Source: Salinivenus sp.
GTDB lineage: Bacteria; Bacteroidota; Rhodothermia; Rhodothermales; Salinibacteraceae
Reading direction: 5' to 3'
DNA length: 34,584 nucleotides
NCBI GenBank assembly: GCA_018609755.1
Contig: JAHENZ010000124.1
Coordinates: forward strand, 1-34,584
Part shown: in pieces, positions 9,167-28,586 of the stretch
Layout of the letters: every line of letters starts with the position of its first letter
Position numbering within the stretch: the first letter of the stretch is position 1
Made by a program: the position numbers and the translations under genes
The notes under the pieces: generated by a model
The model's input: the letters and a program-made list of their open reading frames with translations, nothing else
Told to the model about the DNA's origin: nothing
Database searches by the model: none

Positions 9167-9775
9167 GGGGACTGCGGGTGCCTAAGGGTAATAGGGAAGA
9201 GGAAGTGTACCGTTAAGACAATGCGCTGTTTTCGGCTATGTGCACATTTGATTTGAGTACGACTGTTCTCTCGGCCGGGGCCGTAGGGGGAGGTATTGAT
9301 CGAGTTGGAGACGTAATGACGGCGACGATATGCAAAAATGAGATGAAGAGGTGACACGTAATAATCTATTATTGAGTTTTTTGTTAATTATAAGTTTTTA
9401 TTCACATCTTGAAACCGGTTTCGTGCTGGTCTTACAGGTTCGTCACTATTACACTGGATCTACAGAAGTCATAAAGGAAGCGAATCCAAGGAATTCCACC
9501 TGTGTGATCGTGGAAGCGATTACAATTGGATTCGTGAGAACACGGTTTGTGGGGAGCTTCCCTTTCCGCCAAGGCTGTCTCTACGGAGTTCGCGTTGAGA
9601 CGCAACCGTTTTGAGCGGATTGAGACGGTTTGTCGGTAGGGGGCGACTTAAGACGATATGTCCGAAGACGAACCGCCTCAAGGTGCCAAGTTCGGCATTG
9701 TCGCAGGCCCCAGAGATCGTCATAGACGGGCTCTACGAGGTCCCTTTTCGATTAGATCAAAATCCACCTGCTGTT
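9167..9775. other. Divergent intergenic region, 609 bp, with an AT-rich tract and nested inverted repeat
   Basis: This region separates rtcB (minus) from the TonB receptor (plus) and should hold both promoters. Positions about 9355-9405 are very AT-rich (TTAATTATAAG within them), unlike the flanking genes. A nested inverted repeat lies at 9481-9534. An open frame from GTG 9351 exists but lacks convincing coding character. No tRNA or known riboswitch was recognised. Confidence 0.6.
9481..9534. repeat. Nested inverted repeat upstream of the TonB receptor gene
   Basis: The outer arms CGAATCCAA (9481-9489) and TTGGATTCG (9526-9534) are perfect reverse complements over 9 bp. Inside them TTCCAC (9494-9499) and GTGGAA (9510-9515) form a second 6-bp pair around a 10-nt loop. 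If transcribed it would make an extended stem-loop about 240 nt before the TonB receptor start, so it could be leader structure or an operator. No known riboswitch class was recognised. Confidence 0.45.
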
Positions 9776-12700
9776 ATGAGAAAAGCGATACGGGTTCTCG
9801 CGTCTACACTTCTCATTTTTTGTATTTCTGCCTCTCTGACCTGGGCGCAAACGGGACAGATTGCGGGACAGGTCGTTGAGGAAGAGACAGGAGAGCCCCT
9901 TCCTGGAGTGAACGTCGTCCTCCCAGAACTGACGGGGAAAGGAACCAGCACAAATCAGGACGGGCAATTTCGGATTATCAACGTCCCCCCGGGTACGTAT
10001 ACCGTTCAGGCGACATTCGTAGGGTACGAGACCGCGACTGTTGAGGGTGTGCAGGTGAATCAGGACCTGACGGCCGAGATCACGATCCAGCTTCGGCAAG
10101 ACGTGGCGGAGCTTGAAGGCGTGACGGTGCAGGCCCAACAGGATGTGGTGCAGTCGGACCTGTCCGCGAGCCGAGCGGACATTAGTGCCGAAGACATCGA
10201 AAACCTCCCTGCCGCCGACGTTGCGACCGTTGTGGGACTTCAGGCAGGAATTCAGGGGTTGAATATCCGGGGAAGTGAAGCCGATCAGGCGGACTTTCAG
10301 GTCAATGGCTTTAGTCAGCAGAGCGGTCGAGACAATACGCCCTACACCGGGGTTCCGTACACGGCGATTCAGCAGGTGCAGGTCCAGTCCGGAGGGTTCA
10401 ACGCCGAGTACGGCAACATCCGCTCGGGCATGGTCAACGTGACGACGGTCGAGGGGCCAAGGGATGAATACATGGTAGACGTACTTGCCCGCTATAGTCC
10501 GGCAAGCAGCAAAAGCTTTGGCATCTCGCCCACCGATCCCAACTCCTACTGGATGCGTCCCTATCTCGACCCGGAAGTCGCGATGGAGGGCACGGGACAG
10601 TGGTCGGAGGAGCTTCAGAATTCGTATCCGGATTTTGAGGGATTCAACGAGATCGCGGCCAACAATCCCCAACTCACCCCGCAGCAGGCGCAGGATCTGT
10701 TTCGGTATCGTCACCGCCGGGACATTAGCATCGACAAGCCGGACTACCAGATCGACGGCACGATTGGAGGCCCAGTGCCTGTCGTCAGCGACTATCTTGG
10801 GGATCTCCGGTTTGCCGTCTCGTACCGGCGGGAGCAGGAAGAGTACATTATCCCGCTTTCTCGAAGTGGGTACGACGAACAGACGGGTCGCTTCAACCTC
10901 ACCTCGAACGTCACGAACAACTTTAAAGTAACGTTGACGGGGATGACGGCGATTCAGAAGGGAAACAATCAGGAGAGCCCGCGGACGGGTCCCACCCGCA
11001 TTCGCCGGGATGGAGATCGAGAATGGATTTCAGACTACGGGGCCGGAGTGAACTACACGGAGATTGGAGCCTGGGGGGGAGAGGACATCTTTGGAACGGG
11101 CGCCTGGTCGGAGAGCGACATCCGCCGCTACATGGGCGGACTAAAGGTCAATCACACACTCGGGGAGAACACCTTCTACGAGGCCCAACTGCAGTGGCGG
11201 CAAACCAGCTACCGCACGAATCCGCCCCGGGAGCGCGATACGACAACGATTGCGCAGTTTGGAGGCGTAAGCGTGGACGAAGGGCCCCTCGGGTTTCAGT
11301 TTACGTCCGAAAACTCGATCACGGGACTGCGGATGGGCGGTCACCACTCCGAGTTTCGGGATACTACGGACACGAAAGAGTGGGCCGGCAAGTTTGCGCT
11401 CACGAGGGCCATTGGGCAGTACCACACGGCGAAGGTCGGCGTCGAGTTTAAGACCGAAAATCACGACGTGGACTTCAACTACAAGGACTTTCTCGTAAAC
11501 CCGCCCGACCATTACGCCCACTACAACAGCACGCCCCTTTACGGCGCGGCCTTCATTCAGGACAAGCTGGAGTACAAAGGCATGATTGCCAACGTGGGGC
11601 TGCGGCTCGACTACTTCGATGCCAATACCGAGCGCTACGTCTTTCCGGAGGCGCAGGATGGGAGTGTGGACCGGTACCCGTCGGCGTTTTTGGGAGGGAA
11701 TAAGCCGCGCTTCGACGAGATGATGGAGACCGAGCCGACCGAACCGAATATCAGCTTGAGTCCGCGGCTCGGGGTCTCGTTCCCCATTACCGACGTGAGC
11801 AAGCTATACTTCAACTACGGGCACTTCTATCAGCAGACGCGTCCGGACTTTCTCGACATGGTCCGTCGCGGAAATCAGACGGACAATGTCGTGCAGATTG
11901 CGAATCCGGAAATGCCCCGCCCGAAGACGACCGCCTACGAGCTTGGGTACGAGCAGGGGTTCAGCGAGCAGTACCTGCTCCGGATTGCCGGGTACTACAA
12001 GGACCTTCAGAATCAGCCCCGCTGGGTGCAGTACACGAGCCGCAATGGGCTCATTCAGTACGAATATCCTCGAGCCGAGAACTACCGGGACATTCGGGGC
12101 GTCGAGGTGAGCCTACGGAAGAATCAGGGGGACTGGGTTCGGGGCTTCGTCAACTATACCTATCAGGTGGAGTCCGGAGGGGACTTCGGCTTCTCGCAGC
12201 AATACGAGAGCCGCGTCGACCAGCGTCAATATGAGCGGCAGACGACCGACTACTACCAGTCGAAGCCGCAGCCGCAGCCCTACGCTCGGGTCAGCCTGAC
12301 GTTCTTGACGCCGTCGGACTTCGGGCCGGAGGTGCTCGGCAGCAACGTGTTCGGCGACCTTCGGCTCAACTTCCTCGGACGCTGGAAAGCGGGAAGCTAC
12401 TTCACCTTTACCAACGAACTCACGGTACCGGAGGTGGAAGACAACATGCAGTGGGAGGGCTACAAGATGGTCGACTTGAGGCTCAGCAAGACCGTTCAAA
12501 CGTCGGGCGTAAGTGCCCAGATCTTCGCCGACGTGAACAACGTCTTCAACCTGAAGAACCTCAATCAGTCGTCGTTCTTCGGGCCGAGAGACTTCCAGCA
12601 GTACATCAACTCCCTGCGTCTGCCGGAGGAAGCCGTCGAGGGGTGGGAGGAAAACTACGCCCCTCGCGACGAAGACGGAAACCCTGAGTACGGAAATGAC

Positions 12701-12805
12701 CAGCCCGGCGACATTGAGGCTGACCACATTAATCCCCCCAATGCGAAGTCGCTGCACTACCTCTTCCCGAGGAGTGTAAACATTGGAGTCCGGATGTCCT
12801 TCTAG
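9776..12805 (+). CDS. TonB-dependent outer-membrane receptor with CarboxypepD_reg-like domain
   Basis: The protein has 1009 residues from the ATG at 9776, chosen because a clean signal peptide starts there (MRKAIRVLASTLLIFCISAS, cleavage near TWAQ). The open frame extends further upstream, but that part has no signal character. Order: CarboxypepD_reg-like beta-sandwich (about 25-110; GQVVEEETGEPLPGVNVVL, DGQFRIINVPPGTY), plug domain (about 130-240; LNIRGSEADQADFQVNGF, GGFNAEYG), then a long beta-barrel ending in the aromatic terminus NIGVRMSF. Such receptors import ligands across the outer membrane using TonB-ExbBD energy. There is no SusD-like lipoprotein next to it, so it is not a classical SusCD pair. 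It opens a run of eight same-strand envelope genes; the next gene starts 37 bp later, which suggests cotranscription. The ligand is unknown. Confidence 0.95.
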   Translation: MRKAIRVLASTLLIFCISASLTWAQTGQIAGQVVEEETGEPLPGVNVVLPELTGKGTSTNQDGQFRIINVPPGTYTVQATFVGYETATVEGVQVNQDLTAEITIQLRQDVAELEGVTVQAQQDVVQSDLSASRADISAEDIENLPAADVATVVGLQAGIQGLNIRGSEADQADFQVNGFSQQSGRDNTPYTGVPYTAIQQVQVQSGGFNAEYGNIRSGMVNVTTVEGPRDEYMVDVLARYSPASSKSFGISPTDPNSYWMRPYLDPEVAMEGTGQWSEELQNSYPDFEGFNEIAANNPQLTPQQAQDLFRYRHRRDISIDKPDYQIDGTIGGPVPVVSDYLGDLRFAVSYRREQEEYIIPLSRSGYDEQTGRFNLTSNVTNNFKVTLTGMTAIQKGNNQESPRTGPTRIRRDGDREWISDYGAGVNYTEIGAWGGEDIFGTGAWSESDIRRYMGGLKVNHTLGENTFYEAQLQWRQTSYRTNPPRERDTTTIAQFGGVSVDEGPLGFQFTSENSITGLRMGGHHSEFRDTTDTKEWAGKFALTRAIGQYHTAKVGVEFKTENHDVDFNYKDFLVNPPDHYAHYNSTPLYGAAFIQDKLEYKGMIANVGLRLDYFDANTERYVFPEAQDGSVDRYPSAFLGGNKPRFDEMMETEPTEPNISLSPRLGVSFPITDVSKLYFNYGHFYQQTRPDFLDMVRRGNQTDNVVQIANPEMPRPKTTAYELGYEQGFSEQYLLRIAGYYKDLQNQPRWVQYTSRNGLIQYEYPRAENYRDIRGVEVSLRKNQGDWVRGFVNYTYQVESGGDFGFSQQYESRVDQRQYERQTTDYYQSKPQPQPYARVSLTFLTPSDFGPEVLGSNVFGDLRLNFLGRWKAGSYFTFTNELTVPEVEDNMQWEGYKMVDLRLSKTVQTSGVSAQIFADVNNVFNLKNLNQSSFFGPRDFQQYINSLRLPEEAVEGWEENYAPRDEDGNPEYGNDQPGDIEADHINPPNAKSLHYLFPRSVNIGVRMSF

Positions 12806-12842
12806 GGGCAGTCCGGGGGGAGGGAGGACTAGGGGAATAAAA

Positions 12843-15068
12843 ATGTCAAGACTCGTTCATAGCTGCTATTTCGTGATGAGCTCTTTTGATACTGATTGGC
12901 TCCAAGCACACACTTTCATTGCTGTCGGATGTCTGCTCCTGTTTATGGGGCTGACGGGGACTCAGAAGGGGTATGCCCAGTTTGACCAGAAACCGATGGC
13001 CATCGGGGACCTCAGCATGGTCTATACCGCGACTGGGGGGGAGCAAGAATACTATAACCAGGGGCCGAATCATCTCGAACTGAACCCCGAATTCCAGGAC
13101 GGGCTGCTCCGTGCCGGGGCGCTTTGGATCGGTGCACGGAACGTGCAGGGGAAAGATGGGACGGAGTACGACGAGCGCGTCGTGCACGTCGGCCCGCGTA
13201 CGACCGGATTCGGAGAGTTCTTCCCGGTCGAGTTCACGAAAACCGTGCGCTACGAGCCTCCCACCGTCACGGTCGACGGCAACGAGACGCTGAAGGAGGA
13301 CAAGGGGTACGATGAAGTCGATTCCAGTCTTCCGTCCGATCAAATGATCGAAATTCGGGCGCACACGCTGCTAGGGGTAACCCTGACAAAGCGAATCTAC
13401 GCATGGACGCAGGGGGATCACGATAACTACCATATTCAGGAATACATCCTGACCAACACCGGCCATGCGAGTGCGGAGGAAAACGGTGCCCTCGAAGGGC
13501 AGACGGTCGAGGATGTGTATCTCCACTTTCAGCGGCGCTACACACATCAAGAGCGCTCCGCAATTCCGGGGCAGGAGTGGGGCGCCAACGTGATGAACGA
13601 TATTGTGGGAGACGGCCAGGAGGATTACGACGTGGATTTTGCGGCACAGTACACTTGGAACGGCAACTCGCCGGGCGCGGACATGGACCCCCTCGGCGGG
13701 CCGGCGTGGAACGACAGTCCCTGGTTCCTGGAGCAGGGGGACGACGGGGGAGAGTTGACCACGTCTCAGTTCGTTGGGACGGTCAAGCTCTACGCGCCGG
13801 AGTCGCCGGACAAGCCGCGGCAGCCCTCGATGACGAGTCACATCGACGCCGACCATCCCCTTACGTCCGGCAACAGCGCCTTCAACGAGCAAATGGAGCG
13901 CGAGTATCGGTTTATGTCGACGGCCGAGCGGGCAACGGACGACTACACGCTAGGGGACGGTTCGCACGCGTACCCCCATCACGCCGACATTGCCGATCAG
14001 GACGGAGACTTTACCACCGTGATGGGCGAAGGGGATCCGAAGCTCGGCAAAGCCGGAGGATACACCTCTGCCTTTAGTTATGGCCCGTACGACCTGGAGC
14101 CGGGCGAAAGCGTTCGCATTGTGACCGCCGAGGCAGTCTCGGGGCTTTCGAAACAGGCGCGCGTCGAGATTGGGCAGGCCTTCAAGCAAACAGCTACGGA
14201 TGCGAGCGATCGGAGCACCACCGACGCGTTTGCCGACATCGAGTACGATGCGGACGGCGACGGGACGATTGATTCCGACGAAAGCATGGGCAAGAACGAA
14301 TGGGTCATGACGGGGCGAGACTCGCTCTTTCAGACCTTTGAGCGCGCGATCGCCAACTTCGATGCGGCCAGTAATGCGGACGGGGAGCTTACGAACTATA
14401 TTCTTCCGCAGCCGCCGCGGCCGCCGAGCTCCTTCAGCGTGGAATCCGGGGTCGACCAGATTGACCTGAGCTGGGAGCGTGGGAGCGATCCCCCCGGTGG
14501 ATTTGAGATTTACCGGGCCCGCAGTCGCGTCATGGGGCAATACGACAACAACTATAATTACGAGTTGATTGCGGAGGTAGACGGAGGGACTCGCAGTTAC
14601 AGCGACTCGGACGTGGTCCGCGGGGCGCAGTATTACTACTACATTCAGGCGGTGGGGAACGAAAACATGGATCCCACAGCGATGACCCCGACCGGCAAGC
14701 CCCTTAAGAGCAATCGGTACCAGACGCAGACCTGGGATCCGGCCTCTCTCAAGCGAGGACCGGGCGAGTCGGTGGCGGACTTCAAGATTGTGCCGAACCC
14801 CTACAACGTAGCGGCAGATCAGGACGTGCGATGGGACGAGCAGGATCGGCTTGGCTTTCTGGAGATTCCGGGCAACTGCATCATCCGGATCTACACGGAA
14901 ATGGGAGAGCTGGTGGAGACCATCCAGCACACGGACGGCAGCGGAGACGAGTTTTGGGACCACACCACTGCAGACCGGCAGCTCGTGGCCAGCGGCTTGT
15001 ACATCGCCGTCGTTCGGGATCTCGATACCGGACAGGTCTCCAAGAAGAAGTTCGTCATTATTCGGTAG
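12843..15068 (+). CDS. Exported fibronectin-III-like protein with T9SS-type C-terminal sorting domain
   Basis: The protein has 741 residues from the ATG at 12843, with a purine-rich AGGGGAA just upstream; an alternative ATG at 12876 keeps the same signal. A hydrophobic signal (FIAVGCLLLFMGLTG) ends near YAQ. The large N-terminal part (about 40-520) has no family I recognise. It contains a Ca-binding-like loop DADGDGTIDSDE. A fibronectin type III-like module follows (about residues 535-625; PPSSFSVESGVDQIDLSWER, then YYYYIQAVGNEN). The last about 85 residues (VPNPYNVAAD, then VASGLYIAVVRD and KKKFVIIR at the very end) look like a type A T9SS sorting domain, which directs export across the outer membrane. 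It sits between a TonB receptor and a PorV/PorQ gene, consistent with a surface or secreted partner. Confidence 0.82.
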   Translation: MSRLVHSCYFVMSSFDTDWLQAHTFIAVGCLLLFMGLTGTQKGYAQFDQKPMAIGDLSMVYTATGGEQEYYNQGPNHLELNPEFQDGLLRAGALWIGARNVQGKDGTEYDERVVHVGPRTTGFGEFFPVEFTKTVRYEPPTVTVDGNETLKEDKGYDEVDSSLPSDQMIEIRAHTLLGVTLTKRIYAWTQGDHDNYHIQEYILTNTGHASAEENGALEGQTVEDVYLHFQRRYTHQERSAIPGQEWGANVMNDIVGDGQEDYDVDFAAQYTWNGNSPGADMDPLGGPAWNDSPWFLEQGDDGGELTTSQFVGTVKLYAPESPDKPRQPSMTSHIDADHPLTSGNSAFNEQMEREYRFMSTAERATDDYTLGDGSHAYPHHADIADQDGDFTTVMGEGDPKLGKAGGYTSAFSYGPYDLEPGESVRIVTAEAVSGLSKQARVEIGQAFKQTATDASDRSTTDAFADIEYDADGDGTIDSDESMGKNEWVMTGRDSLFQTFERAIANFDAASNADGELTNYILPQPPRPPSSFSVESGVDQIDLSWERGSDPPGGFEIYRARSRVMGQYDNNYNYELIAEVDGGTRSYSDSDVVRGAQYYYYIQAVGNENMDPTAMTPTGKPLKSNRYQTQTWDPASLKRGPGESVADFKIVPNPYNVAADQDVRWDEQDRLGFLEIPGNCIIRIYTEMGELVETIQHTDGSGDEFWDHTTADRQLVASGLYIAVVRDLDTGQVSKKKFVIIR

Positions 15069-15154
15069 GGGAGACAGGTGCGACCCACAAACTCCTCGGG
15101 GCGTCTACCGAGTGCCTACATTGAGAGATCACACAATTAACCGAGGTGTACATT

Positions 15155-16177
15155 ATGAAATCGCGCATCGTTACGATCATCGCTCTTTCATGTGCCCTAT
15201 TGGTTGGGCTTTCTGCTCCGTCCGTGGCTCAGGATAACACCAAGCGCGCGCAGACTGGGATGGGCTTTCTAAAACAGTCGCTGAGTCCCAAGGTGGCGGG
15301 AATGGGAGGGACGGGAACGACCCTCCGACTGCAGTCCACGTCCCTGTTTTACAATCCGGCCGGAATGGCCCAGATGGACAACTACGGACACGCTGCATTT
15401 TCGACCATGCAGTGGATTGCCGACATCAATTATAATAGTGCGAGCGTGTCCCTCCGTCCGGCTGAGGGCACATACGGGGTGATTGGATTCACCTTTATGC
15501 AGGTCAGTTACGGCGAACTGGAGGGCACCCGCCGCGCCGGGAATGATCAGGGCTACGTGTCCACCGGCACGTTTAGTCCCAACTCGTGGGCGTTTGGGAT
15601 CGGGTACGCATATCCGGTCACGGATCGCATCTCGGTGGGGGCGAAGGTGAAGTACGCGAAGCAGAACCTCGGCCCGAGCGTCATGTCTGCAGACGGGGCC
15701 ACGAAGCAGAATGAACTCGGGACCGGAGCCTACGACTTCGGGATTCAGTACGATACTGATTACAAGGGCATTCAAGTTGCCATGAACGTGCGGAATTTCT
15801 CGCCCGAGGTGCAGTATGAGCGACAAAGCTTTGAGCTGCCGATGGAACTCTCCGTGGGCATTTCTGCAGATATGTTCGAGATGACGGATTGGCTGTCCGA
15901 CCCGAACAATAATCATTCGTTCAACGTGATGCTCAAGGGCGTGACGCCCCGAGACTTCAGTGAGCGGATGCACTTCGGTGGAGAGTACGCCTTTATGGAT
16001 ACCTTCTTCCTTCGAGGAGGGTATACGCTTCCCAAGTCGAGCCTCGAAGAAGGATTCAACGCCGGTGCGGGTTTTCAGACATCGCTGTCCGGCTTTGAGG
16101 TGGGGGCCGATTACTCCTACACGTCCTTTGATGTCTTCAACGGCGTGAATCGAGTCGGGATCAATGTCGGGTTTTAG
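15155..16177 (+). CDS. PorV/PorQ-family outer-membrane beta-barrel protein
   Basis: The protein has 340 residues from the ATG at 15155; CCGAGG lies 9 nt upstream and fits a ribosome site. An in-frame GTG at 15146 is less likely. A signal peptide (IVTIIALSCALLVGLSAPSVAQ) is followed by the typical family opening, with GFLKQSLSPKVAGMGGTGTT and SLFYNPAGMAQ. Alternating beta-strands follow (YGVIGFTF, WAFGIGYAYPVTDRISVGAKVKYAK is split over two strands) and the protein ends in VGINVGF. Relatives include PorV, which shuttles or anchors T9SS cargo at the outer membrane, but many paralogues of unknown role exist. Its place 86 bp after a protein with a T9SS-like tail supports a dedicated cargo or display role; this is inference. 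Confidence 0.88.
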   Translation: MKSRIVTIIALSCALLVGLSAPSVAQDNTKRAQTGMGFLKQSLSPKVAGMGGTGTTLRLQSTSLFYNPAGMAQMDNYGHAAFSTMQWIADINYNSASVSLRPAEGTYGVIGFTFMQVSYGELEGTRRAGNDQGYVSTGTFSPNSWAFGIGYAYPVTDRISVGAKVKYAKQNLGPSVMSADGATKQNELGTGAYDFGIQYDTDYKGIQVAMNVRNFSPEVQYERQSFELPMELSVGISADMFEMTDWLSDPNNNHSFNVMLKGVTPRDFSERMHFGGEYAFMDTFFLRGGYTLPKSSLEEGFNAGAGFQTSLSGFEVGADYSYTSFDVFNGVNRVGINVGF

Positions 16178-16236
16178 AACTCTAATGCAGAAGCGGGGGG
16201 AGTTCGCGTAGTTGCTTCATTGTCCATTCTTGCGCA

Positions 16237-17508
16237 TTGAGCCAATTGATTGACACAAGGCATGGAAGAAGGGGCCGGTGGATGGCCGTTGTGCTTGCGG
16301 TCTGTACCCTGGTCGTCGGAGGATGTGGATCCGGAGGAGAAGGAGAGCCCGAAGGGACGGGGAATGCCATGTCGCGTCAGGCAGTGGACGACACGACGGT
16401 GTCCATGCTCGTGCAGTCGCAGCGGGCCCTGAAACAAGGGGCGCTCCGCAAATCCCTTGCACTTGCCGATAGTGTCGTTCACCGAGCCCCGCGGCTGGCC
16501 GACGGGCACTTTCAGCGGGGACGTGTGCTCTCGGAGCTCAAGCGCTTTGACGAGGCGGAAACGGAGTACCGGAAGGTCCTGTCGCTCGATCCTCAGTATC
16601 AGGGCGCCTGGTTCAATCTGGGGAATAATGCGTATCGGCGCCAAAACTTCGAGAAGGCCCTCCGATACTTTCAGAACGAGCAGGAGCAGTTTGCTTCGGC
16701 CTCTACGCTCGTCGAGATTGGCAAGGCCTATGGGGCGATTGGGAAGCCGGATAGTGCCCAGTGGGCATACGAGCGTGCCCTTTCGCTCGACTCCACCGCG
16801 GCGGCGGCCCATGCTCGACTCGGTCGATTGTACGAGGAGGAGGGCAAACCGGAGGCGGCGCTCAGGCATTCCCGCCGGGCCCTGGAGCTTGCGCCCGATA
16901 ACGTGAACTACCAATATGTCGTCGGGTCTCACCTCTTTCAGCTCGGGCGATACGAGGAGGCGATTGAGCGGCTGGAGTCCGTGATCGAGAAGCGCCCGTG
17001 GCATCAAGAGGCGCACTACAATCTTGGGCAGGCCCTCGTGCGGACGGGGAAACAGGACAAGGGAAAACGCTACCTATCGGCGGCGGATAGTCTCGATAAG
17101 CAGCAGCGCGAGATTGAGCGGTTGGAGTCCGTTGCGAAGGATCAGCCTGACAATCCGAAGCGATGGAAAACCTTGGGCGATGCGTATCGGCGGGCCGGTC
17201 GGTTGGACAGGGCACGAGAGGCGTATAGCATTGCATTGTATCTCCGTCCCACGAGTCCAACGCTTCGAGATCAGATGGCCCAGCTGGCGGCCGAGCGGGG
17301 CAACTACAAGGCAGCCGTTACGCACTATCGGACCCTTTTGCGTCGGAACCCCAACTTTACGGATGGGTGGTTTAATCTCGGGGTGTTATATGCTCAGAAT
17401 GGAGAAACGGAAAAGGCCCGGAAGATGTGGGAGCGAGTGCTTCAGCAAAATCCGAATCATCCGAGGGCGCGGGACTACCTAACCTCTCTTCCGGAAGGGG
17501 ATTCGTAG
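16237..17508 (+). CDS. TPR-repeat lipoprotein
   Basis: The protein has up to 423 residues. The start is uncertain: TTG codons at 16237 and 16246 give a positively charged n-region (RHGRRGRW) before the hydrophobic core MAVVLAVCTLVVGGC, while the ATG at 16282 would leave no charged n-region. The cysteine of VVGGC (about residue 30) is a likely lipid attachment site. About eight or nine tetratricopeptide repeats fill the rest, for example GHFQRGRVLSELKRFDEAE, AWFNLGNNAYRRQNFEKAL, AHARLGRLYEEEGKPEAAL, WKTLGDAYRRAGRLDRA and GWFNLGVLYAQNGETEKA. TPR proteins are scaffolds for protein assembly; this one should act in the periplasm, attached to a membrane. It begins 59 bp after the PorV/PorQ gene and precedes the VCBS/UnbV lipoprotein. 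Confidence 0.85.
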   Translation: MSQLIDTRHGRRGRWMAVVLAVCTLVVGGCGSGGEGEPEGTGNAMSRQAVDDTTVSMLVQSQRALKQGALRKSLALADSVVHRAPRLADGHFQRGRVLSELKRFDEAETEYRKVLSLDPQYQGAWFNLGNNAYRRQNFEKALRYFQNEQEQFASASTLVEIGKAYGAIGKPDSAQWAYERALSLDSTAAAAHARLGRLYEEEGKPEAALRHSRRALELAPDNVNYQYVVGSHLFQLGRYEEAIERLESVIEKRPWHQEAHYNLGQALVRTGKQDKGKRYLSAADSLDKQQREIERLESVAKDQPDNPKRWKTLGDAYRRAGRLDRAREAYSIALYLRPTSPTLRDQMAQLAAERGNYKAAVTHYRTLLRRNPNFTDGWFNLGVLYAQNGETEKARKMWERVLQQNPNHPRARDYLTSLPEGDS

Positions 17509-17576
17509 GTAGAGCGTACCCACTGGAGGGTCGCGACCGGAGGGTGCGTCGCAGAATCAGGATTCCGGCGATTTAA

Positions 17577-17605
17577 GTTGGAGCACGACGTGCTTGACGT
17601 CCAAC
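17577..17605. repeat. Compound hairpin between TPR and VCBS lipoprotein genes
   Basis: The inner arms AGCACG (17582-17587) and CGTGCT (17589-17594) are perfect around one base, and GTTGGA (17577-17582) pairs with TCCAAC (17600-17605) outside them. A separate perfect palindrome GGTCGCGACC lies at 17529-17538. The spacer could hold an intercistronic processing or attenuation site. There is no T-run, so a terminator is not supported. Confidence 0.3.
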
Positions 17606-17670
17606 TCGTTGTTCAGCACCACTGAAAGAGGGGGGAGAGGGTGGTGATTTTGATCCAGACGAGGTGATTC

Positions 17671-19419
17671 GTGTTGCAGCCGTTGTTGAATCAAACGATC
17701 CGGTACGAAACGGGACGATACGGCGTCCTTTGTCTCGTTCTCTTTTTGGGGAGCGTAGGAATGACGGGCTGTGCCGATTCCGCCTCCTCTCCCAGCGGAG
17801 AGTCGGGGGTGTCGTTTGAGGATGTGACGAAACGAGCCAATCTAGACGGCTTTTGGCACCGAACCGGAGCGTTTGGCGAAAAGTGGTTCCCTGAGACGAT
17901 GGGAAGTGGGGGCGGCTTCATCGATTACAATGGCGATGGACGGCTCGACATTCTGCTGGCCGGCGGGGGGGGGTGGGAGGAAAGTGACGTCGAGCTCAAA
18001 CGGGCACTCTGGCTCTACCGCAACGACGGCGGCGGGAGGTTTACACTCGTAACCGAGGAGGCGGGGCTGGGAGGCGTCGAGGCGTACGGGTTCGGAATCA
18101 CCGTTGCCGATTACAACAACGACGGCCATCGGGACTTTTTCTTTACGACCCTGAACCGGAATCTGCTTTTCCGAAATGAGGGGGACGGGACCTTTACCGA
18201 GGTCGGCCGAGAGGCCGGATTGACGGCTCCCCCTGAGTGGAGTAGCTCGGCTGCGTTCTTCGATGCCGATAACGACGGGCATCTCGACCTCTACGTGGGA
18301 AACTACGTGAAGTGGAGCCGGGAGAGCGACCTTTTTTGTTCGGTCGACGGAGATACAAAAGCGTACTGCACGCCTGAAGAGTACGAGGGTGCGATCGGGC
18401 GTTTCTACCACAACGACGGCGACGGCACGTTTACGGAGTGGACGGAACGCGCCGGCTTCCGGTCGTCCCCCGGAAAGACCCTGGGTGTGACGATGTTGGA
18501 CTACAACCGGGACGGCTGGATGGACCTCTACGTGGCCAATGACATGGAGCGCAACCTGCTATACGAGAATAGAGGGGACGGGACGTTTGAGGAGCGCGGA
18601 ACCGTGAGCGGCACGGCGTACAGTCAGTCCGGACGGGTCCGGGCGGGAATGGGGACCGATGCCGGGGTCGTCGACAGCACCGGGCGTCCCACAATCTTTG
18701 TGAGCAATTTCTCCCGCGAAAAGATTAGCGTCTTCCGCCATGAGGGGGACGGACTTTTTCAAGACCGATCTGCGTTGTCGGGCGTGGGGCGTCCCGGGAA
18801 GTTTACGCTTGGGTTCGGCCTCTTTTTGTTCGACGCCGAACTGAACGGTACACTCGATCTCTTCGTCGCGAATGGGCACGTGCAGCCGGACATCGAACAC
18901 ATCGATCGGGCAATTCACTACAAGCAGCGGCCTCACCTCTTTTTGAATGACGGCAACGGGCGATTTGAGGAACTGGCCGTCGACAACGGGCCTCTTACTG
19001 ATTCGTTGGTCGCTCGGGGCGCTGCCTACGGAGACTATGACGAGGATGGCGACCTGGACATTCTCGTGACGGAAAATGAGGGGGCGGCTCATCTCTGGCG
19101 AAATCAGGTGCGTGAAGGAGAGGGAGAGAATGCCCCGAGGTACCTCCGAGTACAGTTGGAGGGAACGGAAAGCAATCGCGACGGAGTCGGCGCCCGGGTT
19201 CGAGTCGAGCGCGGGGAGGATGTTCAGGAGCGTCTTCTTCGCACGGGATCGAGTTATCTCTCATCGAGCGAGATGACCTTGACCTTCGGACTCGGAGAGC
19301 AGTCGAGCGTCGATCAGGTCACGGTGCATTGGCCGAGCGGGGAAATGGATCGAGTGGAGAATGTGAAGGCCAATCAGACGCTCCGCATCGTCGAGGGGAA
19401 GGGGCGGGAAGCGGTGTGA
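17671..19419 (+). CDS. CRTAC1-like lipoprotein: VCBS/FG-GAP repeats with ASPIC/UnbV domain
   Basis: The protein has 582 residues from a GTG at 17671, supported by GAGGTG 5-10 nt upstream and a lipoprotein signal starting there (hydrophobic core about 18-30, lipobox GMTGC with Cys34). Six VCBS-type calcium-binding repeats are visible: FIDYNGDGRLDILLA (83), VADYNNDGHRDFFF (145), FFDADNDGHLDLYV (196), MLDYNRDGWMDLYV (275), a degenerate LFDAELNGTLDLFV (386) and YGDYDEDGDLDILV (453). Together they should form a beta-propeller. The C-terminal ASPIC/UnbV domain covers about 490-575 (SNRDGVGARVRV, HWPSGEMDRV). Its biochemical function is not established; the repeats suggest calcium-dependent binding of protein or carbohydrate at the cell surface or in the periplasm. 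The gene follows the TPR lipoprotein by 162 bp. Confidence 0.9.
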   Translation: MLQPLLNQTIRYETGRYGVLCLVLFLGSVGMTGCADSASSPSGESGVSFEDVTKRANLDGFWHRTGAFGEKWFPETMGSGGGFIDYNGDGRLDILLAGGGGWEESDVELKRALWLYRNDGGGRFTLVTEEAGLGGVEAYGFGITVADYNNDGHRDFFFTTLNRNLLFRNEGDGTFTEVGREAGLTAPPEWSSSAAFFDADNDGHLDLYVGNYVKWSRESDLFCSVDGDTKAYCTPEEYEGAIGRFYHNDGDGTFTEWTERAGFRSSPGKTLGVTMLDYNRDGWMDLYVANDMERNLLYENRGDGTFEERGTVSGTAYSQSGRVRAGMGTDAGVVDSTGRPTIFVSNFSREKISVFRHEGDGLFQDRSALSGVGRPGKFTLGFGLFLFDAELNGTLDLFVANGHVQPDIEHIDRAIHYKQRPHLFLNDGNGRFEELAVDNGPLTDSLVARGAAYGDYDEDGDLDILVTENEGAAHLWRNQVREGEGENAPRYLRVQLEGTESNRDGVGARVRVERGEDVQERLLRTGSSYLSSSEMTLTFGLGEQSSVDQVTVHWPSGEMDRVENVKANQTLRIVEGKGREAV

Positions 19420-19492
19420 TTCGTTCGTCGTGCTGCGTGAACGCGGCATGCAAGGGGACGTCGGACCAGACATTCAACGTTGAGGTGGTGGC

Positions 19493-20629
19493 ATGAAGGT
19501 GCTGATACGGATTGTACTTCTCGTTTGCGTCGGGCTCGGAGTTGGCAGCCACGCACTGTCGGCTCAGTTCCTCCTCCCGGCGCAAGGAGAGACGCCGAAC
19601 GAAGTCCTGCGGCTGGGCGTCGTGGGGATGGTGCACGGGCACGTCCACGGGTTTCTCCAGGCGAGGCCCTACGATGGGGTGGAACTGGTTGGATTTGCCG
19701 AGCCGGATACGGCGCTGAGACGGCAGGTCGCCGACCAGTACGATTTGGAGTCTGAACGTCTGTACGGAGATCTCACGTCGATGCTGGAGGAGGGCCGCCC
19801 GGACGCCGTGGTGGTGTTCACTCATACCTTCGATCACCGGCGCGTCGTCGAGGAAGCGGCCCCACGAGGAGTGCACGTCATGGTCGAGAAGCCGTTGGCG
19901 GTGGGAATGGAGCACGCCCGAGCGATCCAAAAGGCGGCTCGGGCAAACGACGTCCACGTGTTGGTTAATTACGAGACGACCTGGTATCCCAGCACCCATC
20001 GCGCCTATGCCATTGCCCGTGAGAACGGGCGGCTCGGTCCCCTTCGTAAGATGATCGTGCGAGACGGGCACCGCGGACCCAAAGAAATTGGGGTGGGTCC
20101 GGCCTTTCTGGACTGGTTGACCGACCCCACTCTCAATGGGGGCGGGGCCCTCATGGACTTCGGCTGCTACGGGGCAAATCTCCTCACGTGGATGATGGAA
20201 GGACAACGGCCGCGCTCGGTGACGGCCGTCACGCAGCAGGTGAAGTCAGATCCCGTCTATGGGGAGGTGGACGACATCGCGACAATTATCGTGACCTATC
20301 CCGGGGCACAGGGAATCATCCAGGCCTCGTGGAACTGGCCGTACAGTCGCAAGGACCTGTCGATCTATGGACGGGAGGGCTACGTTCACGCCGACGATCC
20401 GATTCGCATGCGCGTCCGCGTCGGAGACGCCGAAGAGCGTCGGGTGACGCTTGAGACGCAGCCGGCGTTCTACGAGGCGGCTGTGCCGTACCTGCAGAAG
20501 GTGGTGGGGGGGACGGTGGAGCCGCAGGGGCTCTCGTCCCTCGAAAACAACATGATCGTAACCGAAATTCTGGACGCGGCTCGTCGCTCGGCCCAGACGG
20601 GGAAGACAGTCCATCTGCAAGACGAGTAG
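19493..20629 (+). CDS. Exported Gfo/Idh/MocA family oxidoreductase
   Basis: This is a 378-residue NAD(P)-dependent oxidoreductase. The ATG at 19493 has GAGG about 8 nt upstream. An N-terminal Sec-like signal (IRIVLLVCVGLGVG, cleavage near ALSA) lacks a twin-arginine motif. The Rossmann domain follows (LRLGVVGMVHGHVHGFL, about 39-55), with the family motif VEKPLAVG (about 136-143). The C-terminal alpha/beta domain contains GGGALMDFGCYGANLL. Family members oxidise or reduce sugars, inositols and related hydroxyl compounds. The glycine loop GVVGMVHGH departs from the usual GxGxxG, so cofactor binding may differ. Location between the UnbV-type lipoprotein and a TonB receptor suggests a role in processing or sensing the imported ligand in the periplasm, which is inferred. 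Confidence 0.88.
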   Translation: MKVLIRIVLLVCVGLGVGSHALSAQFLLPAQGETPNEVLRLGVVGMVHGHVHGFLQARPYDGVELVGFAEPDTALRRQVADQYDLESERLYGDLTSMLEEGRPDAVVVFTHTFDHRRVVEEAAPRGVHVMVEKPLAVGMEHARAIQKAARANDVHVLVNYETTWYPSTHRAYAIARENGRLGPLRKMIVRDGHRGPKEIGVGPAFLDWLTDPTLNGGGALMDFGCYGANLLTWMMEGQRPRSVTAVTQQVKSDPVYGEVDDIATIIVTYPGAQGIIQASWNWPYSRKDLSIYGREGYVHADDPIRMRVRVGDAEERRVTLETQPAFYEAAVPYLQKVVGGTVEPQGLSSLENNMIVTEILDAARRSAQTGKTVHLQDE

Positions 20630-20775
20630 GTATCTGGGACGGGCGGACGACAGAATTGACGAACGATTTTGGGCATCTCCTCGGCCCCAGAAGGCGAAGG
20701 ATTCCGTCCCTCGGCGGCATTCGTCTGGGAGCGTCGGGAGCACAACACTCTGCGGGAACTGGTATTCCATTCCCC

Positions 20776-23148
20776 ATGACGACGATAACGGCAGCGGTCC
20801 GGTCTCCGGCGGCACTGATCTTCTGGGGCGCTCTACTGCCGTTTTTGCTTTTTGGGGGCACCGAAACGGTTCAGGCTCAGGGACGAGGGGAGAAGACGGC
20901 AGTGCTGAGTGGATTTGTCACGGATTCCAGCGACGGTCAGCCCCTCACTGGGGCCAATGTGCTCCTCCAAAAGCTTCCGGACTCTACGGCGTCGTACGGG
21001 GGGGCCACGGATGCGGACGGGGTGTACCTCATCAAGGGGATTCGACCGGGCCGCTATGAGATGCGAGTCTCGTTCGTGGGATACGTGTCGCATCTTGACA
21101 CCCTGACACTCGATTCAGGTCAGCAACAAACGATCAACGTCTCGATCGGGGCTAGTGAGTCTGCTCTCGAGGAGGTCATAGTCGAAGAGGAGCAAGGGGA
21201 GGCGGTTGACGTCGCGGCCGGACGGGAGCGAATTGATCCGGTTGAGGTTGAGCGCATTCCTACGCCGGACGTAAGTGGAGACCTTTCGTCCTATCTTACT
21301 GTGCTTCCGGGTGTCGTTACGCTGGCCGACCGCGGGGGCCAGCTCTTTATCCGCGGGGGGGAGCCCGCCCAGAACATGGTGCTTCTGGATGGCATGGTGC
21401 TCTACAAGCCCTTCCATCTACTGGGGTTTTACTCCGCGTTCCCGGCGGATATCATCGATCATGCAGACGTGTATGCGGGGGGCTTCGGGGCCGAGTACGG
21501 GCGACGGCTCTCTTCGGTGATTGACGTTGCGACACGTGCGGGCAACAAGCGTCACCTCGCCGGTCGGGTGAGCATTTCGCCATTTATGAGCGAACTGCGT
21601 CTGGAGGGGCCCCTTGGAACCGAGCGCGTTTCGGCCCTGGTGTCCGGGCGACAGTCGATGCTGGAACGGGGGGCGGCTCCGCTTATCGGAGAAGAGCTCC
21701 CGTTTCAGTTTGGCGATGCGTTTGGGAAGGTGCACGTCGATCTCGACGAAAACAGTCGGCTGTCGGTGAGTGCCGTTCGAACCTATGATCGGGGCACCTT
21801 ACGTCCCGACTCGGAGGTGGAGACTCTTCCGGAGGAGACGATTCTGGCCGATCCGTTTGGGGAGATTCGGTGGCAGAACTGGGGCATTGGGGCGCGTCAC
21901 CTCGCCGTCCCGTCTACGCTCCCCGTCGTGACTGATTTTTCCCTCTCCCTTTCGGGACACCGGACGGAGTTGGGGCCTCCAGACGCCCCCACGCGCAGCT
22001 CGAGCGTTCGAACGACGCGCATCGCGTTCGACGCTCGATTTCCGGGCGACCGGCTGACGATGCAGGCCGGATTCGAGGGAAGCTTTTCTCGGCTTTCGCA
22101 CGACCTTGGAGGGCTGTATCAGGACACGTTTACCGATGACCTTACGACGCTCGACCACATCGTGATGTACGTGGAACCCGAGGTGAATCTTGGGGCCGTG
22201 CGGCTACAGCCGGGACTGCGATTGCAGTTTCTGAAGAGCCAGTTCAATCCGTTTCTTGCGCCGCGCCTCCGGATGAGCTGGGAGACGGGGCGGCATCGCG
22301 TGAGTGCGGCGAGCGGACTGTACTATCAGGAGGCGGTCGGGCTGAGCGACCGGCGGGACGCAGCAAGCGTCTTCACTGCGTGGACCAACATTCCCAAGCA
22401 TAGCGGGCTGCCGCGCGACGACGTACGGAGGGGGCAGACGCCCCGGGCCGTACACGGAGTGCTCGGGTATCGCGTTGGCCTCCTACCGGAGGTAACGCTT
22501 TCTCTCGAAGGGTATTACAAGCACCTCTCGGATCTTTTCATCGCGGAATGGACCGCATTCCCCCGTTTTACCACCCGCCTGCAGCCGGCCGACGGTCGCT
22601 CGTATGGAGCAGAGGTGCGGCTTGAAGGAGAATGGGGCCCCTTCTACGGGTATCTGGGGTACGGCTATTCCAATACGTTGTACAACGCGCGTCAGAGCGA
22701 GATTGAACTCTGGTACGGCACGGAAGACCTGCGCTTTCGCCCCCCGCACGACCGACGCCATCAGCTCAGCGTACTCCTGAACGTTGAGGTCGGAGGGTTC
22801 GACGCGAGTGCACGATGGCAGTTTGCCTCCGGGCGGCCGTACAGTCGGATTGTCGGGTTCGATGGATTTGCTCCGGTGACGCGGGTCGGGGATGCGACGG
22901 AGTTTCCCGGAACGCGTCGAGTGATTTATGCTGCCCCCTTCGATGGGGTGCTGCCCCCATACCATCGTCTCGACGTGTCCGCCGAGCAGAGCTTTGCACT
23001 GGGATCCGACCTGGAGCTGTCCGTTCAGGCCGCCGTGGTGAACGCCTATCACCGGCGCAATATCTTTTATCTCGACACCTTCACGCTCAAACGCGTCGAT
23101 CAGCTTCCTTTCACCCCCTCCGTAGGGGTTGCTCTTCGGTACAAGTAG
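20776..23148 (+). CDS. TonB-dependent receptor with CarboxypepD_reg-like domain (second copy)
   Basis: The protein has 790 residues from the ATG at 20776, where the signal peptide begins (core LIFWGALLPFLLFGG, cleavage near VQAQ); the frame continues 40 codons upstream without signal character. Domains: CarboxypepD_reg-like (about 35-120; SGFVTDSSDGQPLTGANVLL, GIRPGRYEMRVSFVGY), a region LEEVIVEEEQGEA that may include the TonB box, plug (about 150-255; GGQLFIRGGEPAQNMVLLDG, YAGGFGAEYGRRLSSVIDV) and a beta-barrel of about 530 residues. It is shorter than the receptor at 9776 and differs in sequence, so it is not a recent duplicate. The last residues GVALRYK end in Lys instead of an aromatic residue. 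The next gene starts 12 bp later, so the two are very probably cotranscribed. Confidence 0.94.
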   Translation: MTTITAAVRSPAALIFWGALLPFLLFGGTETVQAQGRGEKTAVLSGFVTDSSDGQPLTGANVLLQKLPDSTASYGGATDADGVYLIKGIRPGRYEMRVSFVGYVSHLDTLTLDSGQQQTINVSIGASESALEEVIVEEEQGEAVDVAAGRERIDPVEVERIPTPDVSGDLSSYLTVLPGVVTLADRGGQLFIRGGEPAQNMVLLDGMVLYKPFHLLGFYSAFPADIIDHADVYAGGFGAEYGRRLSSVIDVATRAGNKRHLAGRVSISPFMSELRLEGPLGTERVSALVSGRQSMLERGAAPLIGEELPFQFGDAFGKVHVDLDENSRLSVSAVRTYDRGTLRPDSEVETLPEETILADPFGEIRWQNWGIGARHLAVPSTLPVVTDFSLSLSGHRTELGPPDAPTRSSSVRTTRIAFDARFPGDRLTMQAGFEGSFSRLSHDLGGLYQDTFTDDLTTLDHIVMYVEPEVNLGAVRLQPGLRLQFLKSQFNPFLAPRLRMSWETGRHRVSAASGLYYQEAVGLSDRRDAASVFTAWTNIPKHSGLPRDDVRRGQTPRAVHGVLGYRVGLLPEVTLSLEGYYKHLSDLFIAEWTAFPRFTTRLQPADGRSYGAEVRLEGEWGPFYGYLGYGYSNTLYNARQSEIELWYGTEDLRFRPPHDRRHQLSVLLNVEVGGFDASARWQFASGRPYSRIVGFDGFAPVTRVGDATEFPGTRRVIYAAPFDGVLPPYHRLDVSAEQSFALGSDLELSVQAAVVNAYHRRNIFYLDTFTLKRVDQLPFTPSVGVALRYK

Positions 23149-23160
23149 CGACGGTCTCTC

Positions 23161-24069
23161 ATGCGTCCTGCTCTTCTTACATTCCTGTTGAGTGTCGTGC
23201 TCGTGCTTTCGGGCTGCGAGACCTCGGTGGATCCGATTGTGGGGACCGAGAAGGCGTTTTCCCTCTACGGGGTGCTTCAGCCGCGGGCGGACACACAGTG
23301 GGTACGGGTCTATCCCATAAAAGAACAATTGAGGCCCACTCCGCCGGACTCTCTCGACGTCACCTTCAGGTCGACCGAGCTGGAGCGAGGGCGGAGCACT
23401 GTTTGGCACGATTCGCTGATTCGGGAGGACGACGGCCGTTATGCACACGTGTACTGGAGCCGCACCCCCATTGCGTACGAGCGTACCTATCGGTTAGAGG
23501 TCACGGAGAGCGGGGGGACTACCCGGGTAGAGGTTCCTGTGCCCGAACCCGCGGGACTTGCCCTTCGCGAGCCTCAGGCGGAGGCGGCGCCCGTGATTGT
23601 GCCCGTGCACGTCACCCGTAGCGTGCCGCGCCTCATCAACTTGGAGGTGGAGTACTACGTGCAGTACGACCGAGCGGAAAACGTAGCAGGAAATGACCCA
23701 CCGACGGCCCGTCTCCGCGTGTCGTACGATGGGGCGCAGGGGCAGATCGACGGAGGATGGGTGGTGCCCGTCGATTTGAGCGAGGACTTCCAGGTGCTCC
23801 GCGAGCGGCTCGTCAATGCGGATCTGTGGAATTCTTCCGTCGGCCTCGTGATGCGGAATATGACGCTCCGCCTGGAGGTCGTGAACGAGGCATGGAATCC
23901 GCCCGGAGGCGAATTCGACCCCAACGTGCTGGTTGAGCCCGGGGCGATGTCGAACGTGAGAAATGGATTTGGATTTGTGGGGGCGGGATATCAACTCAAG
24001 AAACAGTGGACCCCATCGGTTGAGGTTCTCGAAAAGGCCGGCTGGACGAATCCTGCCGATCTCTATTAA
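23161..24069 (+). CDS. DUF4249-like outer-membrane or periplasmic lipoprotein
   Basis: This is a 302-residue lipoprotein: signal LLTFLLSVVLVLSGC with lipobox Cys19 (VLSGC). The body is beta-rich with an opening typical of the DUF4249 group (KAFSLYGVLQPRADTQWVRVYP), then VTFRSTELERG, TYRLEVTESGG and a C-terminal GFGFVGAGY-type segment. In Bacteroidota, DUF4249 proteins are commonly encoded right after a TonB receptor and are presumed to be accessory lipoproteins; their ligands are unknown. The 12-bp spacing to the receptor fits that arrangement. Family assignment is by pattern only and would need a profile search. Confidence 0.72.
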   Translation: MRPALLTFLLSVVLVLSGCETSVDPIVGTEKAFSLYGVLQPRADTQWVRVYPIKEQLRPTPPDSLDVTFRSTELERGRSTVWHDSLIREDDGRYAHVYWSRTPIAYERTYRLEVTESGGTTRVEVPVPEPAGLALREPQAEAAPVIVPVHVTRSVPRLINLEVEYYVQYDRAENVAGNDPPTARLRVSYDGAQGQIDGGWVVPVDLSEDFQVLRERLVNADLWNSSVGLVMRNMTLRLEVVNEAWNPPGGEFDPNVLVEPGAMSNVRNGFGFVGAGYQLKKQWTPSVEVLEKAGWTNPADLY

Positions 24070-24434
24070 GGGGTCGGGGGTACTGGAGTACGTCCCTCGG
24101 TCGTCCTGAAGGATGAAGAACCTTTAGTAGAGCCTAACCCATGTCGCTCTAGGACATCTGAGATGTCCAGGCCTGACTCCGGCAATCTAGAGTGTCGAGC
24201 CCATCCGACGGTCGCTGGGATCTGTTTTTGTCGATTGGATGGGCTCCAAATCAGGTTTGGAGCGACAAACCATAATGCTTTTGTCTCGGCTTTGCAGCGG
24301 TTTTGTTAGACCTTCTAACATCGTCAGTCGGTTTCCGACTTCTTGTGACTATAAAAGTATGGACGTATGTAGGTGTCACCTCCACACCTACACACGTCCA
24401 CACACATCTCCCAACGACGTTTGCGGAGTTGATT
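24070..24434. other. Convergent intergenic region, 365 bp, packed with hairpins
   Basis: No gene is visible. Besides the terminator-like hairpin at 24361-24399 the spacer has four further inverted repeats: GGACATCT/AGATGTCC around one base (24152-24168), flanked by CTCTAG and CTAGAG (24147-24152 and 24187-24192); AGCCCATCC/GGATGGGCT (24198-24206 and 24237-24245); GCTCCAAA/TTTGGAGC (24243-24250 and 24256-24263); and TGTTAGA/TCTAACA (24304-24310 and 24314-24320). The first three might end transcription of the eight-gene block or form a structured RNA. Confidence 0.55.
24361..24399 (-). terminator. Probable terminator of the minus-strand Gfo/Idh/MocA gene
   Basis: Sixteen-base arms (24361-24376 and 24384-24399) pair at 15 positions around a 7-nt loop. 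Read on the minus strand the hairpin comes about 36 nt after the stop at 24435 and is followed by ATACTTTTAT (24360-24351), a short T-run. This is the best intrinsic terminator candidate in the window. Confidence 0.7.
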
Positions 24435-25826: not shown

Positions 25827-25900
25827 AAAGGTTGGTGGGTTTTTGTAAACGCTTCCAGATGGTCGAAAGAACGTTGAGCCGCCTTGTGTTCTGCTGGCGA

Positions 25901-27499: not shown

Positions 27500-27644
27500 T
27501 GAGCGAGCCGGGCGAATGGGCGGGCAACGTGTCTCCACAGGGTAACGACCCGCTCGGGAATATCCAAGGGCGAACGTTGGGCGTGGGAGCGCGGGGGCAA
27601 GGGAGTCGAGCGAACCATGTACGCTCAGATGCCACGTTCCTCAG

Positions 27645-28517
27645 CTATTCGAAGGATGTCAGGGTTCGTTCGACCGAGCCGGCGTATCCTGCACCGAAGA
27701 GGTTGAGGTGGTTGATGAGGTGGTACAGGTTGTAAATGTCACGGCGCGTCTCGTACCCGGGCTCTAGTGCCCATGCGTCCCGGTAGACATCGTAGAAGCG
27801 GTCCTGAAATCCCCCGAAAAGCTCCGTCATGGCGAGGTCGGCCTCCCGGTGGCCGTAGTACGTGGCCGGGTCGAAAATGGCGGGTTCGCCCACCGCGGTC
27901 ACCATAAAGTTGCCTTTCCACAGGTCGCCGTGCAGCACGGACGGATCCGGCGTCTGCGGCAGAAGCTCGGGCAGTCGCCGGTACAGCGCCTCCAGCGGAC
28001 GATTCCAGTCCGATTGCCACCGGCCGCGGTCCCGCGCCATCTGGACCTGCGGCTCCAGCCGCTCCGAGCGGAAAAAGGCCGGCCACTCGTCCATCCACTC
28101 GTTCGATTGGGGAGACTGGCCGATGAAGTTGTTACGGTCGAATCCGTATTCATCGGCGGTGTGTCGATGCAACTCGGCCAGCCCTTCGCCGAACCGCTCC
28201 CAAAAGCGCCGGCCCTTGCGTCCGGAGTTGATCCACTCCATCACGAGAAAGCCGGGATGGTCGTCCGTCGGGGACGCGATTTCGAGGACGGAGGGCACCG
28301 TAAGTGGACTGTCGGCTTCGTCGAGGGCGTCGAGGCCCGCCGCCTCCGCCGGGAAGGTTCGGGCCACGTCCTCGTCGCCGTACTTCAGGAAAAAGGGCGC
28401 CCCGTCCGTCTCGACCCGGCAGGCGTTGGCGATGCATCCACCCCCGACGGCCGCGACGCTCTCAATCGTCACGTCGAGCCGGTCTTCAAGCGTCTCACGA
28501 AGAGAATCAGGGATCAT
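27645..28517 (-). CDS. Fructosamine/ketosamine-3-kinase family protein
   Basis: The protein has 290 residues, the usual length for the family. The nucleotide-binding part shows VGGGCIANACRVE and FFLKYGDED with the ATP-contacting Lys. The catalytic loop is VLHGDLWKGNF, and the metal-binding Asp follows in AIFDPATYYGHREADLAM. The N-terminus, MIPDSLRETLEDRL, fits an ATG at 28517. The fold is that of aminoglycoside-phosphotransferase-like kinases. Characterised bacterial members mostly phosphorylate ribulosamines or erythrulosamines, making the sugar adduct unstable so that the amine is freed. The low-molecular-weight phosphatase gene lies 69 bp upstream on the same strand, matching a recurrent deglycation gene pair. 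Confidence 0.92.
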   Translation of the reverse strand: MIPDSLRETLEDRLDVTIESVAAVGGGCIANACRVETDGAPFFLKYGDEDVARTFPAEAAGLDALDEADSPLTVPSVLEIASPTDDHPGFLVMEWINSGRKGRRFWERFGEGLAELHRHTADEYGFDRNNFIGQSPQSNEWMDEWPAFFRSERLEPQVQMARDRGRWQSDWNRPLEALYRRLPELLPQTPDPSVLHGDLWKGNFMVTAVGEPAIFDPATYYGHREADLAMTELFGGFQDRFYDVYRDAWALEPGYETRRDIYNLYHLINHLNLFGAGYAGSVERTLTSFE

Positions 28518-28586
28518 CGTTCGAGCGTGAGAGAGTGGGTGCGTGGGCGTGAAGAGAGGAAGAGGGTCTGGAGACGTGCTTGCTCC

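Follow-up and report, generated by a model that had tools for sequence, protein, structure and literature searches.

A conserved g1-g2-g3 gene triad encoding a TonB-dependent receptor, a T9SS-tailed protein and a PorV/PorQ-family barrel in Salinivenus, with a candidate role in carbohydrate uptake

Genes and boundaries of the locus

The studied DNA stretch (hereinafter the window) covers positions 1–34,584 of contig JAHENZ010000124.1 from Salinivenus sp. (GenBank assembly GCA_018609755.1; this genome is referred to as G000). At positions 9776–24069 it contains eight consecutive plus-strand genes, g1–g8, with intergenic gaps of 12–162 bp. All eight products are predicted to be exported, and a signal peptide or a lipobox was recognized by inspection at each N-terminus. 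The original prediction, made from the sequence alone, described the same layout without SusD, and both this description and its domain calls were borne out. Below we consider which of these genes belong together and whether they may serve carbohydrate uptake.

The first gene (g1, 9776–12805) encodes a TonB-dependent receptor of 1009 aa with the CarbopepD_reg (PF13715) and Plug (PF07715) domains. It is followed by g2 (12843–15068), whose 741-aa product is a predicted surface protein formed by a super-beta-sandwich, an FnIII-like domain and a C-terminal domain (CTD) similar to that of type A cargo of the type IX secretion system (T9SS), and by g3 (15155–16177), encoding an outer-membrane barrel of the PorV/PorQ family. 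Then come two lipoprotein genes, g4 (16237/16282–17508; ATG at 16282, lipobox VVGGC, Pfam TPR) and the CRTAC1-like g5 (17671–19419), in which an FG-GAP propeller (FG-GAP_3, PF13517; 173.5 bits) is combined with UnbV_ASPIC (PF07593; 73.8 bits). The product of g6 (19493–20629) is a predicted exported oxidoreductase (Pfam GFO_IDH_MocA). A second TonB-dependent receptor with CarbopepD_reg and Plug is encoded by g7 (20656/20776–23148, the likely start being the ATG at 20776), and g8 (23161–24069) encodes a DUF4249-like lipoprotein with lipobox LSGC, recognized by a weak Pfam match. No SusD, regulator, glycoside hydrolase (GH) or lyase was found among the eight proteins in the Pfam search.

A perfect 12-bp LacI-type palindrome, GAAACCGGTTTC, considered here as a putative operator, lies at 9411–9422, 353 bp upstream of the g1 start codon, and a terminator-like stem of 20 pairs at 24357–24403, downstream of g8 and between convergent transcription units. 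Apart from this stem, scans for sigma-70 promoters and terminators gave results at the chance level, and in the terminator scan none of the intergenic gaps had a convincing plus-strand terminator. Since the upstream neighbor of g1, encoding RtcB, is divergent, and the genes downstream of g8 are convergent, g1–g8 plausibly form a single transcription unit. The genes past g8 are encoded by the minus strand, so this unit would end at g8. Plus-strand open reading frames (ORFs) at 24303–29450 were considered as further operon members and rejected, being antisense shadows of minus-strand genes for a Gfo/Idh protein, a carboxylesterase, a fructosamine kinase and a low-molecular-weight phosphatase. 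The RtcB gene (6182–9166, minus strand, 994 aa) carries a long in-frame intein (Intein_splicing match at approximately residues 106–610); GH13 and GH31 genes lie beyond it, 5 kb upstream of the operon.

Conservation of gene order

Homologues of g2 were sought in 100 relatives, and 80 loci were fetched from a wider named genome collection. The g2 protein is the member of a full-length family with matches in 85 of the 100 relatives, the best hits outside the genus being 42–58% identical. The complete eight-gene order recurs only in one congener (G009, locus L046; 74–92% identity). The eight genes are thus not one indivisible set, and the operon resolves into modules.

The core module is the triad g1-g2-g3; among the 80 loci, its order is kept in nearly all of those of sufficient length. 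By scripted counts, g1 precedes g2 in 67 of 73 loci and g3 follows g2 in 74 of 79. Several of the exceptions are artefacts of ORF boundaries, with g1 or g3 visible at the place; genuine exceptions are L112 and L159, as well as the second copy of L105. At L159 (9697–14269), on a Neomarinimicrobiota chromosome, two g2 genes stand in tandem with no recognizable g1 or g3 adjoining them. Loci with the triad belong to Rhodothermota, Balneolota, Ignavibacteriota, Calditrichota, KSB1, Neomarinimicrobiota and Latescibacterota. Several Rhodothermales retain the longer order g1-g2-g3-g5-g4-hydrolase-g7-g8, even as tandem repeats. Within the genus the triad is accessory, being absent from most T9SS-bearing congeners.

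A different pattern is seen for g6, a genus-level addition. Only G000 and G009 have it in the cluster; about 28 other genomes carry an orthologue (48–59% identity) approximately once per genome, outside the cluster at the loci examined. No shared pathway was seen in the neighborhoods of these orthologues. In the original prediction the eight genes were taken for a single unit serving the import and redox modification of a sugar-like or metal-complexed ligand. This would agree with the contiguity of the genes here and in G009 and with the signal peptide, which is also present in the g6 orthologues. Yet g6, on which the redox step rests, is outside the cluster at all loci examined beyond the genus, and neither a gene nor a motif of metal uptake was noticed. 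We therefore consider the eight-gene unit very improbable. The comparison of gene order in relatives, which that prediction had proposed as a check, came out positive for g1–g5 across phyla and for g1–g5 with g7–g8 within the order, and negative for all eight genes as one set; a multi-protein envelope system stands, an indivisible one does not.

A phylogenetic tree of 96 g2 proteins was built with FastTree. It contains one fully supported split into subfamilies A and B with disjoint gene neighborhoods; finer placements are unsure, since the tree was built by FastTree and has some long branches. In subfamily A, 54 of 59 members are followed by TIG, T9SS-tail and usually GHL10 genes. All 23 loci of subfamily B, which includes g2 of the window, have g4 or g5 genes, and none has the type A neighborhood. 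When mapped on the trees, the neighborhood label changes exactly once on the g2 tree, likewise once on the g1 tree, and twice on the g3 tree. The subfamily A locus forms a six-gene set of its own (TonB-dependent receptor, g2, PorV, TIG protein, T9SS-tail protein, GHL10), observed at L096, L100, L113, L128, L141, L144, L148, L162 and others and conserved in Rhodothermota, Balneolota, Ignavibacteriota, Calditrichota and KSB1.

In the 23 subfamily B loci the triad is followed by TPR genes of the g4 kind (20 loci) and CRTAC1-like genes of the g5 kind (22 loci), often as alternating copies. A lipobox is present in 42 of 52 members of the g4 family and in 54 of 65 members of the g5 family. The two kinds are linked by a fusion: a single 1169-aa protein encoded on another contig of G000 (L226:7082–10591, C234) consists of TPR, FG-GAP and UnbV_ASPIC. 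Inside the CRTAC1/TPR arrays of some subfamily B loci there is also a gene for a membrane-type protein with four CXXCH motifs and a C-terminal TPR region (L060:16856–19726, L065:12613–15333). A haloperoxidase-type or electron-transfer role, suggested by this tetrahaem-TPR gene, was dropped, as the gene is absent from the window locus.

The last two genes form a separate module. A g8 homologue adjoins g7 in 15 of 16 cases, the gap in the window being 12 bp, and 14 of 15 members of the g8 family match DUF4249; the window g8 itself scores 21.1 bits, under the cut-off of 28.5. The structural model of g8 is weak (pLDDT 67) and matches only generic Ig-like folds. By adjacency, g7-g8 is a pair of a TonB-dependent transporter (TBDT) and a DUF4249 protein, and g8 is, by analogy, a probable surface lid of g7. 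The description of both receptors as SusD-less is correct in that the locus has no SusD, while for g7 a known alternative lid family stands next to it.

Domains and co-divergence of the core proteins

The receptors are distant from SusC. Against the SusC/RagA family TIGR04056 (cut-off 368) g1 scores 69.9 and g7 40.9 bits, with the match limited to the N-terminal part, whereas the true SusC proteins of the same genome score 758–874. The genome carries 12 SusD-like_3 matches elsewhere and none among g1–g8. The locus is not a standard polysaccharide utilization locus (PUL), as had been stated: it lacks SusD, a receptor of the SusC level and an operon glycoside hydrolase.

The g3 protein belongs to the PorV/PorQ family (NF033709, 181.8 bits at the cut-off of 90) and falls below both equivalog cut-offs (NF033710, 67.3 against 250; NF033711, 90.6 against 220), scoring higher for PorQ than for PorV. 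The genome encodes SprA, a canonical PorV on contig C274 (297 bits), five PorV-family loci and 51 type A tails. As the canonical PorV is located elsewhere, g3 is an additional paralogue. Co-occurrence with SprA was dropped as discriminating evidence, SprA being present in 99 of 100 relatives. On contig C82 of G000 (L223:7291–10010) a BNR-repeat protein with a T9SS-type tail is encoded directly upstream of a PorV-family gene, making a cargo-barrel pair without a TonB receptor.

The AlphaFold2 model of g2, based on 54 sequences, has pLDDT 85 and pTM 0.85. In the predicted fold, residues 45–520 (approximately) match the N-terminal super-beta-sandwich of GH94, GH65 and GH116 enzymes (Z-scores 14–18.7, rmsd 3–4.2, about 10% identity). 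The catalytic alpha6/alpha6 barrel of these enzymes is absent, and past residue 520 the model contains only the FnIII and the T9SS Ig-like domains. In the g2 family the tail matches the PorZ C-terminus in 47 of 54 members and TIGR04183 in 20 of 54. At the family level, therefore, g2 carries the predicted C-terminal sorting domain of type A T9SS cargo. The tail is also the most conserved part of g2 (59% vs 44%).

Two facts on T9SS are relevant here: PorQ retains PorZ by its uncleaved CTD, and barrels of the PorP/SprF kind cluster with type B cargo (PMC10202324). Because of these precedents, g2 may be anchored on g3. The resemblance may go further, and the triad would then be a PorZ/PorQ-like module for envelope assembly or surface attachment, one that binds a surface polysaccharide or keeps the cell surface intact, and g1 would be its structural partner rather than a nutrient importer. 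The g2 tail is nearest to PorZ, g3 is closer to PorQ, and the TIG, T9SS-tail and GHL10 neighbors of subfamily A look more like envelope upkeep than catabolism. However, in the window subfamily the neighbors are CRTAC1/TPR and TBDT-DUF4249 genes, the putative operator described below groups the locus with SusCD and beta-glucanases, and a triad missing from most T9SS-bearing congeners is accessory. We consider this explanation unlikely.

Correlations of pairwise distances were 0.83 for g1-g2, 0.39 for g2-g3 and 0.50 for g1-g3. When the domains of g2 were treated separately, the N-domain was found to co-diverge more strongly with g1 (rho 0.82) than with g3 (0.35), and the CTD leaned to g3 (0.43) as compared with g1 (0.26), the bootstrap interaction being 0.64 (0.44–0.87); this contrast is suggestive only, because it is largely a product of the A/B split. 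These values bear on another explanation, by which g2 is an ordinary T9SS cargo, released or sortase-anchored, that acts alone on a polymer, whereas g1, g3 and the lipoproteins are merely co-regulated with it and form no complex. Indeed, type A cargo is normally cleaved and then anchored or released (PMC10202324), the genome has 51 other tails, and g3 co-diverges with g2 only moderately. On the other hand, g2 is nearly always accompanied by a dedicated PorV/PorQ barrel, its distances correlate with those of g1 at 0.83, and it does not have the catalytic barrel of the matched enzymes. An ordinary cargo thus seems quite improbable.

Putative operator, proposed function and comparison with known systems

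The palindrome GAAACCGGTTTC is present in the window in a single copy and in the genome in eight exact copies, compared to approximately 0.2 expected from base composition; the reversed control yielded none. Copies in G000 precede a SusC-SusD-SGBP_B-GH44 set and two GH9 genes and adjoin a gene for a LacI-family regulator (L245:4302–5345) with GH3 upstream. A related site on contig C134 has a LacI homologue on one side and a GH3-like region on the other. Together these sites (L240–L246, L250) outline a putative LacI regulon. At L245 (547–3645) a 1032-aa protein is predicted to be a fusion of GH3 and a beta-lactamase-fold domain. In G009 the sole genome-wide match of RAAACCGGTTTY stands upstream of its own g1, and in another genome (G003) a similar site stands in front of SusCD, beside a gene for LacI. 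An exact copy of the operator was found in none of the 230 loci fetched up to that scan. The palindrome thus recurs at a LacI gene and at sugar genes, as it would in a LacI-regulated sugar regulon, and is a putative operator.

Three lines point to a sugar as the ligand. First, other ASPIC/FG-GAP lipoproteins of the same genome flank true SusC-SusD pairs at three loci, which suggests that g1-g2 occupies the SusCD position here. Second is the palindrome regulon. Third, in Latescibacterota the neighbors of subfamily B triads include MFS_2 sugar transporters, a sulfatase and further catabolic genes. The choice of beta-glucan comes from the regulon only (SusCD-GH44, GH9, GH3/LacI). As for the ligand proposed originally, its sugar-like variant agrees with the LacI-type operator regulon and the fold of g2, and the metal-complexed one gained no support.

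We propose, with a probability of about 0.55, that the locus is a LacI-type-regulated, SusD-independent operon for the surface capture and import of a carbohydrate, most likely beta-glucan or cello-oligosaccharide. In such a system g2 would cross the outer membrane through T9SS, and its uncleaved CTD would be clamped at the cell surface by the PorQ-like barrel g3, in the way PorZ is by PorQ. The super-sandwich of g2 would bind the ligand and pass it to the receptor g1, in the role of SusD or of a BtuG lid. The lipoproteins g4 and g5 may be further surface binders or a scaffold, g7-g8 a second receptor-plus-lid pair, and g6 an accessory periplasmic sugar oxidoreductase acquired in the genus.

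Several observations weigh against this proposal. The operon has no glycoside hydrolase, a shared super-sandwich fold is no proof that g2 binds sugar, and the T9SS-tail match of the window g2 itself is weak (17.2 bits, E 0.0013). The domain-wise contrast in co-divergence is due mostly to the A/B split and is weak, if visible at all, within subfamily B. The control for CTD conservation is mixed, x1 tails being less and x0 tails more conserved than the remainder of the protein. Finally, three of the eight palindrome copies (contigs C2, C188 and C198) have no obvious adjoining sugar gene, no second site is present in G009, and none in G013 or G033.

More broadly, and tentatively, the triads may represent a type of TonB-dependent uptake machinery found in several phyla of the FCB group. 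Instead of a lipoprotein, the receptor would have as its capture partner a T9SS-exported super-sandwich protein on its own PorQ-type barrel, with two ancient subfamilies having different accessory genes. If so, a single surface complex combines nutrient import with type IX secretion in phyla whose surface nutrition is poorly known, and uncharacterized PorV/PorQ-family paralogues and CRTAC1/TPR lipoproteins obtain a role. Orthologues in Roseithermus sacchariphilus and Balneola are amenable to testing. In the literature, of which only open-access papers were covered so that this is weak evidence, we found no description of a TonB receptor accompanied by a T9SS-tailed partner that has a PorV/PorQ barrel of its own, and nothing on CRTAC1/UnbV with TonB and T9SS or on FG-GAP with SusCD. 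The kinds of components are already known, and their combination is apparently new.

With SusCD systems and PULs the locus shares a CarbopepD_reg TonB receptor, surface lipoproteins (as predicted), a sugar-type regulator site and ASPIC companions as at the SusCD loci of the same genome. It differs from them in having no SusD, receptors far under the SusC cut-off, no operon glycoside hydrolase and a partner predicted to be exported by T9SS. According to an earlier description (PMC10404256), lidded TonB transporters are lipoprotein-capped and specific to Bacteroidetes. Among them, BtuG and XusB of Bacteroides are beta-propeller surface lipoproteins capping TonB transporters (PMC10404256, PMC13142918) and thus provide a precedent for g5. 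The BtuB-BtuG and XusA-XusB pairs resemble the locus in that a non-SusD surface protein is encoded beside the transporter, which it caps, and g5 is likewise a beta-propeller lipoprotein; in contrast, the best candidate partner of g1 is g2, a T9SS-type super-sandwich protein and not a lipoprotein propeller, and the ligand differs. BT2172-BT2173 is reported as a TBDT-DUF4249 pair (PMC11003636, citing Price et al. 2023). At the family level, g7-g8 is similar to it in adjacency and in the DUF4249-type lipoprotein, and differs in the divergent, sub-threshold DUF4249 match of g8 and in being embedded in a larger operon. As in PorZ-PorQ and in type B cargo with PorP/SprF, an exported protein is encoded or would act with its own PorV-like barrel, the retained CTD being a model; unlike them, g2 is accompanied by a TonB receptor, and its main domain is a carbohydrate-enzyme super-sandwich instead of the PorZ propellers. 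Finally, g2 shares with GH94, GH65 and GH116 the predicted N-terminal super-beta-sandwich fold, and in place of their alpha6/alpha6 barrel it carries FnIII and a T9SS tail.

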